DNA of 6,503 bases from NCBI GenBank assembly GCA_019423265.1, contig JAHZBS010000135.1, positions 1 to 6,503 of the forward strand, in the 5' to 3' direction. The notes under the pieces were generated by a model, which did no database searches, was not told where the DNA came from, and saw only the letters and a program-made list of their open reading frames with translations. Of this stretch, positions 1 through 6,503 are shown piece after piece. Origin of the DNA: Clostridiales bacterium (GTDB lineage: Bacteria > Bacillota_A > Clostridia > Lachnospirales > Bianqueaceae). The translations under genes were made by a program, and so were the position numbers. Each line of letters begins with the position of its first letter. Position 1 is the first letter of the stretch.

Positions 1-718
1 GCGAAAGATCTCCGCGGTCCGCAGCCTCTACAAGTATTTTTACAAAAAGGAAAAGATTAAGGGCAACCCGGCCATGCTGGTCAGCACTCCCAAAATCCAC
101 GATAAGAATATTATCCGACTGGATGTACACGAGATTGCCCGTCTGTTGGACGAGGTGGAATCCGGCGATAAGCTGACGAAGCGCCAGCGGGTCTACCACG
201 AACATACCCGCGTCCGGGACCTCGCGCTGATCTCTGTGCTTTTGGGGACGGGGATGCGGGTCTCTGAATGTGTCGGCCTGAATCTGACCGATATTGATTT
301 TGAGAATAATGGACTTCGGATTGTGCGAAAAGGCGGCAATGAGTCCATACTCTATTTTGGGGATGAGGTCGAACAGGCCCTCCGCGACTATCTCCAACAG
401 CGAAAACAGATCCTTCCGCTGGACGGACACGAGGATGCTCTCTTTTTATCCCTCAAAAAAAGCAGGATCACCGTCCGCGCGGTTGAAAACCTGGTGAAAA
501 AGTACGCGCAGACCGTTACCCAGCTAAAAAATATATCGCCCCACAAACTGCGCAGCTCCTATGGAACAGAGCTGTACAATGAGACAGGCGATATCTATCT
601 CGTAGCGGATGTGCTGGGCCATAAGGACGTCAATACAACGCGAAAGCACTATGCGCAAATTGAAGATTCCCGGCGCCGCAGTGCCGCCAACGTGGTGAAG
701 CTTCGAAAAGAGGAATAG
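1..718 (+). CDS. Tyrosine recombinase (Xer/phage integrase family), 5'-truncated by window edge
   Basis: This enzyme cuts and rejoins DNA through a catalytic tyrosine. The reading frame is open from base 2, well before the first ATG at 74. The upstream residues (RKISAVRSLYKYFYKKEKI, then NPA) look like the end of the N-terminal core-binding domain of XerC/XerD proteins, so the true start lies outside the window and roughly 60-90 residues are missing (inference from family length). The catalytic domain is intact. Numbered from the ATG at 74, I see Arg62 (GTGMRVSE), Lys86 (RKGGNE), His157 and Arg160 (HKLRSS), His183 (LGHKDVNTT) and the nucleophile Tyr193 (KHYAQI). HKLRSS replaces the more usual HxLRHS/T. 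It is convergent with the fucO-like gene and shares its terminator. It may be a housekeeping chromosome-dimer resolvase or an accessory recombinase; the target site is not visible. No mobile-element ends or att repeats were seen nearby. Confidence 0.93.
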   Translation, partial: RKISAVRSLYKYFYKKEKIKGNPAMLVSTPKIHDKNIIRLDVHEIARLLDEVESGDKLTKRQRVYHEHTRVRDLALISVLLGTGMRVSECVGLNLTDIDFENNGLRIVRKGGNESILYFGDEVEQALRDYLQQRKQILPLDGHEDALFLSLKKSRITVRAVENLVKKYAQTVTQLKNISPHKLRSSYGTELYNETGDIYLVADVLGHKDVNTTRKHYAQIEDSRRRSAANVVKLRKEE

Positions 719-3791: not shown

Positions 3792-3815
3792 AAAAAAAAC
3801 GGCGCCAAGGCGCCG
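3792..3815 (-). terminator. Intrinsic terminator of the YneA-like LysM gene
   Basis: A compact GC-only hairpin, CGGCGCC with GGCGCCG at 3800-3815, is followed on the minus strand by eight T residues (complement of 3792-3799). It lies 19 bases past the stop of the LysM gene and is a textbook Rho-independent terminator. Confidence 0.92.
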
Positions 3816-3834
3816 CGTCAATCCGTAAACATCT

Positions 3835-4194
3835 CTACTCGTTGGAGACCGAGTAAATTGGCAGAATCAACGACTGTCCCGATACAATGGTATCAGAGGA
3901 CATTTGATTAAGCCTTTTAATCTCACTGACGTACCGGCGAACATCCATTCCCTCCGCCTTGTACTGCTGCGCAATGGTCCACAGACAGTCCCCTGCGCCG
4001 ATGGTGACAGACTGATACGTCTTGACATTCAGCTCTTCCGCCCGGGCAGCATGGCGGATCCCCTGCGCGATCAACAGCGATAATAAGATGATGACCAGCG
4101 CTGAGAGAATGACCAGCAGCCTGCGGTACCGGGCAAGCAGCTTCCTTTTATGCGCTGTTCTAGCCGTCACATGTGTAGTTTGATATGTAGTCAT
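3835..4194 (-). CDS. yneA: YneA-like SOS cell-division inhibitor: membrane-anchored LysM protein
   Basis: This is a 119-residue protein with a basic N-terminal stretch of about 25 residues (HKRKLLARYRR), one membrane helix at about 26-46 (LLVILSALVIILLSLLIAQG) and an external LysM domain at about 60-113 (GDCLWTIA, an inserted KAEGMDVRRYVSEIKRLNQ block, then SGQSLILP). This order, the size and the insert within LysM match YneA of Bacillus, a LexA-controlled protein that halts septation during DNA damage. The control region supports the call: a consensus promoter is overlaid with LexA-like boxes. I start at the ATG at 4194 because GAGGG lies 6 bases upstream; an in-frame ATG at 4212 has no ribosome binding site and would add 6 residues. 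Its N-terminal cytoplasmic tail is longer than in B. subtilis YneA. The single cysteine (Cys70) replaces the usual Thr/Ser of the GDTLW motif. Without the SOS signals the default would be a LysM protein of unknown role. Confidence 0.78.
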   Translation of the reverse strand: MTTYQTTHVTARTAHKRKLLARYRRLLVILSALVIILLSLLIAQGIRHAARAEELNVKTYQSVTIGAGDCLWTIAQQYKAEGMDVRRYVSEIKRLNQMSSDTIVSGQSLILPIYSVSNE

Positions 4195-4206: not shown

Positions 4207-4218
4207 TTTCATCTAACA

Positions 4219-4232
4219 AGAACAATTGTTTG
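4219..4232. promoter_or_regulatory. LexA-like box A in the leader of the LysM gene
   Basis: The plus strand reads AGAACAATTGTTTG, containing GAAC-AATT-GTTT and the perfect palindrome AACAATTGTT (4221-4230). It fits GAAC-N4-GTTC with one core mismatch. It lies in the untranslated leader, downstream of the predicted transcription start. Confidence 0.55.
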
Positions 4233-4233
4233 C

Positions 4234-4247
4234 CGATAGTATGTTCT
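4234..4247. promoter_or_regulatory. LexA-like box B at the transcription start of the LysM gene
   Basis: The minus strand reads AGAACATACTATCG just after the -10 box. One half-site (GAACAT) is perfect and the other is degraded; overall 11 of 14 positions match CGAACRNRYGTTYC read on the plus strand. It covers the predicted start point. Confidence 0.45.
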
Positions 4248-4248
4248 T

Positions 4249-4277
4249 ATTATAATGCGAACATGCATTCTTGTCAA
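4249..4277 (-). promoter_or_regulatory. Sigma-A promoter of the YneA-like gene (perfect consensus)
   Basis: On the minus strand, TTGACA (4277-4272) and TATAAT (4254-4249) are 17 bases apart, a 12 of 12 match. A LexA-like box fills most of the spacer. A promoter this strong needs tight repression, which fits an SOS gene that must be silent in undamaged cells. Confidence 0.92.
4258..4271. promoter_or_regulatory. LexA-like box C within the promoter spacer of the LysM gene
   Basis: The plus strand reads CGAACATGCATTCT, matching 12 of 14 positions of CGAACRNRYGTTYC (GAAC-ATGC-ATTC). It lies between the -35 and -10 hexamers, where bound LexA would block RNA polymerase directly. Confidence 0.72.
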
Positions 4278-4280
4278 GGG

Positions 4281-4308
4281 GATTTTTAGAAAATTTTAGA
4301 ATTTTTAT
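4281..4308 (-). promoter_or_regulatory. AT-rich UP-element-like tract upstream of the YneA-like promoter
   Basis: Directly upstream of the -35 box, the minus strand carries three short A-tracts (AAAAA, AAAA, AAAAA) spaced roughly one helical turn apart. Such tracts bind the alpha subunit C-terminal domain of RNA polymerase and raise promoter strength. The assignment is from base composition and position only. Confidence 0.4.
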
Positions 4309-4322
4309 GGACCATACGTTCG
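4309..4322. promoter_or_regulatory. LexA-like box D, upstream site between the divergent genes
   Basis: The minus strand reads CGAACGTATGGTCC, matching 13 of 14 positions of CGAACRNRYGTTYC, the best match in the window; the one mismatch is G for T in the right half. It lies about 32 bases upstream of the -35 box of the LysM gene and about 60 bases upstream of the divergent DUF4234 promoter. That is too far for simple occlusion of either, so it may assist cooperative LexA binding or be left from a lost divergent promoter. Confidence 0.65.
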
Positions 4323-4381
4323 CAAAGTCCTCCCATCTTCACTGGCATTTCTCTGAAATTATAAAAATCTATTATAAGCAA

Positions 4382-4410
4382 TTGACATATAGAGCGTGAT
4401 TCAGTAAAAT
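4382..4410 (+). promoter_or_regulatory. Sigma-A promoter of the DUF4234 gene
   Basis: TTGACA (4382-4387) and TAAAAT (4405-4410) are separated by 17 bases. Eleven of 12 positions match consensus. No LexA-like box overlaps it. The leader is about 35 bases. Confidence 0.85.
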
Positions 4411-4431
4411 AGTAGAGAGAGGAATCATATT

Positions 4432-4440
4432 AAAGGAGGT
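4432..4440 (+). promoter_or_regulatory. Ribosome binding site of the DUF4234 gene
   Basis: AAAGGAGGT is a full-strength Shine-Dalgarno sequence, but it stands 11 bases before the ATG at 4452, a longer gap than usual. No alternative start codon falls closer in any useful position. Confidence 0.75.
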
Positions 4441-4451
4441 TCTACATACCT

Positions 4452-4814
4452 ATGCAACAAAAAAGTCTTCCCCTATGTATCGTATTGTCCATCGTCACCT
4501 GTGGCATCTACGGAATCTATTGGTTTATCTGCATGACCAATGACTCCAACCAGCTGTCCAACCAGACCAACGCGCCCTCCGGCGGAATGGCGTTTCTCCT
4601 GACGCTTGTCACCTGTAATATCTATGGCATCTATTGGGCCTACAAGATGGGTGAAAAGCTTGATCAAGCCAAAACGCAGCGCGGTATTCCCAGCAGCAAC
4701 AGCAATGTTCTCTATCTTGTCTTAGAATTGCTCATGCCCATAGTCGGCTGGGCCCTGATGCAGAATGAGATCAATCGCCTCATCGCAACAGACAGTGGCC
4801 AGCCCCAGCAGTAA
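4452..4814 (+). CDS. DUF4234 family small membrane protein
   Basis: This is a 120-residue protein with three likely membrane segments, at about 5-27, 45-66 and 86-104. The first two segments each contain the sequence VTCxIYGIYW (TCGIYGIYWFICMTND and TCNIYGIYWAYKMGEKLD), and the third is followed by LMQNEINRLI. This layout is what I know of the DUF4234 family, widespread in Firmicutes, whose biochemical role is not established; I assign no function. The C-terminal tail is short and polar (DSGQPQQ). The gene is divergent from the YneA-like gene, has its own promoter and is followed 42 bases later by a strong terminator, so it is probably monocistronic. The intergenic LexA-like box D raises a possible but unsupported SOS link. 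Confidence 0.85.
   Translation: MQQKSLPLCIVLSIVTCGIYGIYWFICMTNDSNQLSNQTNAPSGGMAFLLTLVTCNIYGIYWAYKMGEKLDQAKTQRGIPSSNSNVLYLVLELLMPIVGWALMQNEINRLIATDSGQPQQ
4494..4637 (+). repeat. Internal duplication in the DUF4234 gene
   Basis: Two in-frame 30-base copies, 4494-4523 and 4608-4637, match at 25 of 30 bases and both encode VTCxIYGIYW. They start the ends of the first and second membrane segments. The conservation reflects a family-level helix duplication plus shared codon choice. Confidence 0.85.
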
Positions 4815-5032: not shown

Positions 5033-6503
5033 CTATTCGTACTTAGCGCCATTCTCCATAGCGGTCTTGATCTGGTCCTGACCCCAATCGACGATCTGCT
5101 GAAGTCCAAGGGCGTCGCACTGGGTCTTCATCTCATCGAACATGGAATCGATCTCCGCGTCATCTTTGGCGGTCATAACGATCTTCCAAGAGTACTCGCA
5201 GACAATGCTCTTGACGTTGCTCTGGATATCCTGCAGATCCGACGGCATGGTCTCGATGAGCTTTTTCCACTCCGGCTGATAGCAGATCAGATCCTTCTCC
5301 GTCCACACCTGGATGGGACGGCGGTATCCATAGTACTCCTCGTACATGTCTACAAGCTTGTTGTCCTCAATCTTCTTCTCTGTGTACGCCGCCTGGTCAG
5401 TGATGCGGAATTCCACATTGTACTTGGAATGCTGGGTTGCCGACATCAAGCCCCAAGCTGAGAACCAGTCGGAGCTGCTCTCGCCGGTTCCGAAGGTATG
5501 AGACCCTGTCGCCAGGAATTCGTCTACCGCGTCCGTCAGAACGTATTTGCCGTCTACGATATCCCACAGCTCGCCCTGCGGTCCCCCCTGCATCACCAAC
5601 ATGGCATCTTCATCATACATCATGTTGATGAATCTCAGGCACGCTTCCAATTCTTTCGTGGTGGAGCTGACGAATACCGGATCTCCCGTGCTTCCGCCGA
5701 TCAATGTCTCACCGGCAACAACCGGGTGCTGGCCTTCCCAGATCAGAGGCATGAACCCTGTGGGGGTCTCTGCATTCATATGCTCATCCGTGTTGTAGCC
5801 ACTGCAATAGTTTCCATACATAGCGGTGAGGTACTGTCCGGAATCGACGATCTTCGCCTGGGTGATCTCGTAGGTCTGAGTCATGGAGTCCGGATCCACT
5901 AATCCCATGCGGTTCGCCGTGGACATCCATTTCAGGGCCTCATAGTAGGCGCTTCCCTTCTCGATCATCGGTTCAACCTTGTCTTCTGCGATATTGTACG
6001 TATTATATCCAATTACCGTATCGCTCACGCCCATTACAGTCAAGTATTTGCCTGCGTTGGACATGTGAGTTCCGTCCCAGCTGGGATAGAAGCCCATGGC
6101 GTATGTCTTCTGCCCGTCCTCCGTCTCCGGATAGACTTCCTGCATCTTCTTCAGCGCATCCAGGAATGTATACATATCCGTGACTTCCGGTTTTCCCGCT
6201 TTTTCATAGATGTCCCACCGGATATTCGCCGCGTAGCAGCCCACATCCATCGGGTAGGCATTGTAAGTTCCGATCTGGGTGATGATGGCATACAGTTTTC
6301 CTGTGCCCGCGCTCTTGTAGTCCTTGGAATACTGGACGGACTGGGGATGCTTCTCCGTATAGTTGGGAATCTGATCCTCATAGTCTGTCAGATCCATGAC
6401 GTGGCCGCCCTCAATCGCCTGGGTGGGATCCCCATCTACCGCATATTTGCCTAAGTCCGGCAGATTTCCCGCCGCCAACATGGGCTGTAATTTCTCTTTA
6501 TCC
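5033..6503 (-). CDS. ABC transporter extracellular solute-binding protein (family 1, LplA/YtcQ-like), N-terminus outside window
   Basis: This is the carbohydrate-type substrate-capturing subunit of an ABC importer. At least 489 residues are visible and the frame is open to the right edge. An in-frame ATG at 6481 is internal: the residues before it (DKEKLQP) and after it (MLAAGNLPDLGKY) form the GxLPDL-type motif usually found some 60-80 residues into mature family 1 binding proteins. The signal peptide and lipobox cysteine therefore lie outside the window. The body is rich in Trp and Tyr (YPSWDG, MYEEYYGYRRP, CEYSWKIVM), typical of sugar-binding clefts, and the size suits the larger LplA/YtcQ-like proteins that bind oligosaccharides; the ligand cannot be named. 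No permease or ATPase gene follows, so partners would be upstream (beyond 6503) or elsewhere. The C-terminus (ENGAKYE) is complete and a probable terminator follows. Confidence 0.88.
   Translation of the reverse strand, partial: DKEKLQPMLAAGNLPDLGKYAVDGDPTQAIEGGHVMDLTDYEDQIPNYTEKHPQSVQYSKDYKSAGTGKLYAIITQIGTYNAYPMDVGCYAANIRWDIYEKAGKPEVTDMYTFLDALKKMQEVYPETEDGQKTYAMGFYPSWDGTHMSNAGKYLTVMGVSDTVIGYNTYNIAEDKVEPMIEKGSAYYEALKWMSTANRMGLVDPDSMTQTYEITQAKIVDSGQYLTAMYGNYCSGYNTDEHMNAETPTGFMPLIWEGQHPVVAGETLIGGSTGDPVFVSSTTKELEACLRFINMMYDEDAMLVMQGGPQGELWDIVDGKYVLTDAVDEFLATGSHTFGTGESSSDWFSAWGLMSATQHSKYNVEFRITDQAAYTEKKIEDNKLVDMYEEYYGYRRPIQVWTEKDLICYQPEWKKLIETMPSDLQDIQSNVKSIVCEYSWKIVMTAKDDAEIDSMFDEMKTQCDALGLQQIVDWGQDQIKTAMENGAKYE

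Follow-up and report, generated by a model that had tools for sequence, protein, structure and literature searches.

A putative SOS-controlled yneA-type division inhibitor gene parted from lexA in a near-Lachnospiraceae bacterium

Does a small LysM protein gene, whose promoter is accompanied by a cluster of LexA-like boxes and whose divergent neighbour is a DUF4234 gene instead of lexA, encode a division inhibitor of the SOS response? This question was addressed for the window, i.e. the whole stretch of DNA analysed (6503 bases, 51% GC). The original prediction, which took the gene for a damage-inducible brake on septation, is supported by our analysis, because the gene appears to be orthologous to a yneA-type gene which, in relatives, is mostly linked to lexA and preceded by multiple boxes. 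The best explanation, which we consider very probable, is that a near-Lachnospiraceae bacterium here carries a yneA-type gene for a division inhibitor, under SOS control and parted from its usual divergent partner lexA.

Gene content of the window and the predicted protein

The features on which the argument depends are listed below (the ranks of the boxes refer to the whole window).

2..718, plus strand: gene of a Xer-type tyrosine recombinase (Pfam Phage_integrase), its 5' end cut by the window
3799..3816, minus strand: terminator-like hairpin 3' of the yneA-like gene (7-pair stem and a T run)
3835..4194, minus strand: yneA-like gene, 119 aa, predicted product with one transmembrane helix and an extracellular LysM domain
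4219..4232, no strand assigned: putative leader LexA box, centre about +16 (16.5 bits, rank 1)
4234..4247, no strand assigned: weak box or GAAC half-site just past the -10 element, centre +2 (4.9 bits, rank 7)
4249..4277, minus strand: sigma-A-type promoter (TTGACA 4277-4272, 17-base spacer, TATAAT 4254-4249)
4258..4271, no strand assigned: putative LexA box occupying the promoter spacer, centre -22 (9.8 bits, rank 2)
4309..4322, no strand assigned: putative distal LexA box, centre -74 (9.2 bits, rank 3)
4382..4410, plus strand: promoter-like site (TTGACA-17-TAAAAT, 11/12 matches) ahead of the divergent DUF4234 gene
4452..4814, plus strand: DUF4234 protein gene (Pfam PF14018, 104.8 bits), in the place usually occupied by lexA in relatives

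The Pfam/NCBIfam scan also revealed an Fe-dependent alcohol dehydrogenase (lactaldehyde reductase type) and a PutP-type symporter, the latter having its nearest titled records (~60% identity) in Lachnospiraceae and Clostridiales MAGs. A large minus-strand ORF (5033-6502) gave no Pfam or NCBIfam match at 1e-3; judged by eye, it resembles an extracellular solute-binding protein. The Rfam scan produced no match. Terminator-like hairpins numbered 2 in the stretch, compared with 1.3 in shuffles. Since the yneA-like gene has its own promoter and is followed by a hairpin, its mRNA is probably monocistronic. An alternative start codon of this gene, upstream at 4212, would give 125 aa; the ATG at 4194 seems the likelier start, because it is preceded by GAGGG.

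The YneA architecture (one helix plus LysM) that had been ascribed to the product was confirmed by several lines of analysis. Its LysM domain was recognised by Pfam (35 bits), and the YneA equivalog model of NCBIfam (NF010723/PRK14125) gave 61.0 bits for the 119-aa form and 60.8 bits for the 125-aa form, a narrow margin of about 1 bit over the curated cut-off of 60; four of seven relatives scanned with the same model pass, and three lie at 50.6-59.7. The protein has a single hydrophobic segment (peak at residues 26-44) with seven K/R and zero D/E residues ahead of it, and one hydrophobic segment is likewise present in the proteins of all 62 relatives analysed (see below). The AlphaFold2 model consists of a helix (residues 8-45) and a LysM fold (pLDDT about 95 over residues 61-110), for which the top PDB matches of a structure search were LysM domains (E >= 1.3e-3). 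The window gene can therefore be predicted to be of the YneA type, with one transmembrane helix and a LysM domain, just above the NCBIfam cut-off.

Identity to the window protein was 25-41% in 52 of the 54 aligned homologues, and four homologues were listed by the protein search, two being shorter, partial matches. Scanning of genome contigs with the LysM protein as the query gave no match, nor did scanning of viral contigs with P0002, a protein 90% identical to that of the window. The LysM motif (3985-3987, minus strand) reads GDC-LW in the window and GEC-LW in P0002, and the position of the cysteine is taken by T, S, N or D in 62 of 62 relatives. Judged by the GD-x-LW motif alone, the D is kept in the window and the T of B. 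subtilis is replaced by C. In B. subtilis, residues D46, T47 and I81 of LysM are required for YneA activity, and alanine at D46 or T47 inactivates the protein (extracts of PMC13396833).

The promoter and its LexA-like boxes

The promoter that had been predicted for the gene, TTGACA-17-TATAAT, is exactly where it was placed and agrees with the consensus at 12 of 12 bases, a score that, with spacers of 15-19 allowed, was reached in 2 of 3000 cases when the region was resampled at first order. It aligns with the promoters of the yneA-type genes of relatives, and transcription is expected to start near 4242.

The LexA motif was derived by proxy. Instead of the native motif, we used lexA and recA located in 30 genomes from the family of genome G001 (record titled Lachnospiraceae), which were reached through a scan with the neighbouring PutP protein, and the motif search covered all gapped 4-base palindromes with one arm mismatch allowed. 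GAAC-N4-GTTC was the top de novo palindrome both in recA promoters (29/30, with 3.4 expected) and in lexA promoters (30/30, with 4.5 expected). In the small family holding the closest LysM homologues it came second (14/16 lexA promoters, with 3.2 expected), a result which, like the matrix results, retains one promoter (L214) for which the wrong end was taken. Extra, weaker LexA-like proteins were also seen in some relatives.

The boxes were scored with a consensus-seeded 16-position matrix (starts at 4218, 4233, 4257 and 4308) refined on the recA sites of 29 relatives, so that the bits express the relatives' motif and not that of the host's own LexA. Leave-one-out scores of the recA sites were 13.1-22.7 bits in 29 of 30 cases and -1.8 in one. 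The four 14-mers named in the original prediction are all present, and their placement in the spacer (-22), over the start point (+2) and in the leader (+16) is as it described; on this matrix three of them pass as LexA boxes (ranks 1-3), but 4234-4247 does not stand beside them. Two further matrices, trained on lexA promoters, placed 4219-4232 first and the boxes starting at 4258 and 4309 among the top four, with 4234 ranked 19th and 8th. The ranks given by the recA- and lexA-trained matrices point to one strong, two moderate and one marginal candidate box. A GAAC-N4-GTTC operator is thus found at the promoter, as expected of a member of the LexA regulon.

Chance matching is very unlikely to be the source of the cluster: among 5000 dinucleotide shuffles of 4213-4451, none had three sites of at least 9 bits, none had four of at least 4.8 bits, and even two sites of 9 bits occurred in only one. 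The count of “13 of 14” put forward earlier is correct for the best box (4309-4322) when scored against CGAACRNRYGTTYC, which we take to be the Gram-positive SOS consensus, and the remaining three boxes reach 11, 11 and 12. Scores of at least 12/14 occur, however, at six places in the window, four of which are outside the cluster; this 14-position scale alone is therefore weak evidence. Against the strict form CGAAC-N4-GTTCG, three boxes match at 8/10 and 4234-4247 at 7/10.

The start-point box 4234-4247 is, at best, a weak site or a half-site. The sequence GAACA directly after the -10 element is common to the window and five close relatives (L175, L176, L177, L179 and L201); in L175 and L201 it forms a direct repeat, GAACATACGAAC, rather than a palindrome. 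In view of this recurrence, what scores as a marginal fourth box may in fact be a half-site under conservation.

Control of the DUF4234 gene by the same boxes was also considered and set aside, because this gene has its own promoter-like site, at which no box of at least 4.8 bits was found with the recA-trained matrix. Upstream of that site, however, the distal box comes to within about 60 bases.

Gene order and promoter design in relatives

Of 150 genomes sampled from the family of G001, 124 have a homologue of the LysM protein, and in the 30 best-scoring of these lexA was in every case divergent and on the same contig (gaps of 140-1861 bases). We fetched 64 LysM loci and analysed 62 of them (L188 and L199 were left out, the script having found no matching open frame). 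When five LexA queries were used and linkage was defined as a distance within about 1.5 kb, lexA was the divergent neighbour of the yneA-type gene in 56 of the 62, a count which, like the others over these loci, does not represent independent cases, since from each sample the loci that best matched the query were taken, near-duplicates (L183/L184) among them. The window departs from this pattern, with DUF4234 adjoining the yneA-like gene instead of lexA. Adjacency to lexA usually accompanies the YneA protein but does not define it.

Homologues of the window Xer protein (51-77% identity) occur in 26 of the 64 LysM-centred loci. In 22 of these 26 loci the xer and LysM genes converge, in 19 of the 22 within 175 bases of each other. 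Given this gene order in relatives, the window looks like an altered xer - yneA - lexA block, in which two metabolic genes separate xer from yneA. DUF4234 would then stand where lexA once was, an order of events that we infer from the comparison.

The promoter design of the yneA-type gene is conserved. Upstream of it, 52 of the 62 relatives have at least three boxes of at least 9 bits, whereas the recA promoters have one box (20/30), two (9/30) or none (1/30). The best yneA-type promoter matches the consensus at 11-12 of 12 bases in 53 of the 62 loci (none of 62 resampled promoters reaches 11 matches), 52 of these 53 have a 17-base spacer, and 51 carry a box of at least 7 bits within it (centre -26 to -16). 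Among the recA promoters, 16 of 30 reach 11 matches and two of these 16 have a spacer box. The box centres of the yneA-type promoters cluster at about -66 to -49, -30 to -19 and 0 to +17, and a minor fourth group occupies -90 to -72; the window boxes at -22 and +16 fall within the main groups and that at -74 within the minor one. A multi-box cluster is therefore the normal design for a yneA-type gene in this group.

In strength, the leader box is the sole window box above the middle, scoring higher than 36 of its 56 counterparts. Of the 62 relatives, 58 have a spacer box, and that of the window is weaker than 56 of the 58; a box of at least 4.8 bits at -96 to -48 is likewise present in 58 of the 62, and the distal box of the window is weaker than 54 of them. 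These ranks, the 4.9 bits of the start-point box and the lack of an adjacent lexA might mean that the weaker boxes are leftovers of a former shared lexA-yneA intergenic region, which have been decaying since lexA moved, so that a single main operator (the leader box) would act on a gene that is still SOS-controlled. We regard this as rather unlikely, because three relatives without lexA nearby (L082, L084 and L085) keep three boxes each, of 13-17 bits, and because close relatives have both the spacer box and the +2 half-site at the same places; moreover, scores based on recA sites of another family may undervalue the LexA preference of this lineage.

The same three loci belong to a set of six (of the 62) in which lexA is not nearby. 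L185 has three boxes (8.8-19.0 bits), L201 has two, and L112, the yneA-type locus of genome G109, has zero; five of the six parted genes thus keep two or three boxes of at least 7 bits. Of 11 lexA genes with no LysM gene nearby, nine have one or two boxes within 420 bases (L233, L236, L237, L238, L207, L215, L216, L219 and L220), L240 has none and L116 has three, an inserted ORF separating lexA from the LysM gene in the last case. These counts suggest that the box clusters mostly travel with the yneA-type gene, in a small sample with real exceptions.

Some of these loci have further peculiarities. The inserted ORF of G109 (349 aa), which lies between the three-box lexA promoter (L116) and the yneA-type gene (L112), resembles, by eye only, RRXRR/HNH nuclease proteins. 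In the genus of G185, five of seven genomes gave no LysM homologue at E 1e-3; in four of these five genomes (G257, G279, G248 and G272; loci L215, L216, L219 and L220), lexA has a single box, and an ORF resembling ribosomal protein L21 (by eye) is divergent from it, 391-426 bases away.

Proposed mechanism and comparison with known systems

LysM proteins have many roles, and the gene might encode a LysM membrane protein which is induced by damage but has no blocking effect on division, e.g. a cell-wall-remodelling factor. The low identity of most homologues (25-41% in 52 of 54) and the unusual GDC motif would fit such a role, which we nevertheless judge improbable, since the protein passes the YneA equivalog model and its homologues are divergent from lexA, as are known Gram-positive division inhibitors (PMC6851548, in excerpt). 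That the boxes are chance matches, or are read by another repressor such as one of the phage-type S24 kind, for which the extra LexA-like proteins of some relatives might speak, is very improbable in view of the shuffles, the derivation of the motif from the relatives' recA promoters and the conserved geometry.

From the sites, the promoter and the protein architecture of the window, and from the gene order and conserved design observed in relatives, we infer LexA binding, tight repression, inducibility by damage and action on division for an SOS-controlled yneA-type gene. In undamaged cells, LexA dimers would occupy the leader box and the one lying between the -35 and -10 elements, with weaker occupancy of the distal and start-point boxes, and an otherwise maximal promoter would be blocked. 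Upon damage, RecA filaments would trigger the self-cleavage of LexA and the promoter would become fully open. The short mRNA would then yield the one-helix LysM protein, predicted to hold up the synthesis of septal wall until the damage is repaired, in the manner of B. subtilis YneA, which acts through FtsW. The available portions of PMC13396833 describe LexA as blocking transcription until RecA filaments provoke its cleavage; in the same account the transmembrane helix of B. subtilis YneA binds FtsW, and its LysM domain must bind peptidoglycan to stop septal synthesis. A lexA mutant of C. difficile forms filaments (PMC4689574, partial text), which is in keeping with the presence of a LexA-repressed division inhibitor in Clostridia. 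The LexA protein of B. subtilis bound three sites derived from metagenomes of the human gut (PMC3998124).

We also put forward, tentatively and as a possibility rather than an expectation, that the yneA-type gene of Lachnospiraceae and of the order is an extreme switch. It would combine a near-consensus promoter with at least three LexA sites (at about -60, -22 and +10), mostly kept even without an adjacent lexA, so that the division block would be the last and sharpest output of the SOS response, given when LexA is almost gone, with recA (one or two sites) induced early. The difference in box number between yneA-type genes and recA, within a conserved promoter design, allows the logic of timing in SOS division arrest to be probed with reporter fusions, and genomes in which yneA is separated from lexA reveal which of the two genes the individual boxes accompany. 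The analysis adds a large group of Clostridia to the bacteria with a predicted YneA-type checkpoint. In the literature, covered at the level of titles and abstract openings and with few subscription papers, we found no description of a yneA-type gene in Lachnospiraceae, and the main text of a paper on the LexA regulon of C. difficile (PMC4234289) contains neither “LysM” nor “yneA”.

The nearest known system is YneA of B. subtilis, which is likewise small, with one N-terminal transmembrane helix, an extracellular LysM domain and SOS-type promoter boxes; homologues in most relatives of the window are, moreover, divergent from lexA. In B. subtilis the gene belongs to the yneA-yneB-ynzC operon. 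Unlike it, the window gene is not beside lexA, has the LysM motif GDC-LW and is directly followed by a terminator-like hairpin. SosA of Staphylococcus aureus is also an SOS-controlled small membrane division inhibitor encoded divergently from lexA (extracts of PMC6851548), but has no LysM domain. ChiZ of M. tuberculosis and DivS of C. glutamicum are Gram-positive SOS division inhibitors with one transmembrane segment, and ChiZ, as the window protein, has LysM (same extracts); both belong to other lineages and are likened here by description. SulA of E. coli, likewise compared by description, is an SOS-induced brake on division, which differs in acting on FtsZ (PMC13396833, consulted passages). 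Inhibitors of this kind adjacent to lexA, mostly with LysM, are known from Bacillus, Listeria, Mycobacterium and others, as the sections seen of PMC6851548 report. The type of switch is conserved and basically known, the window gene appears to be a further YneA-type case, and the conserved design of the clamped promoter is the most interesting part.
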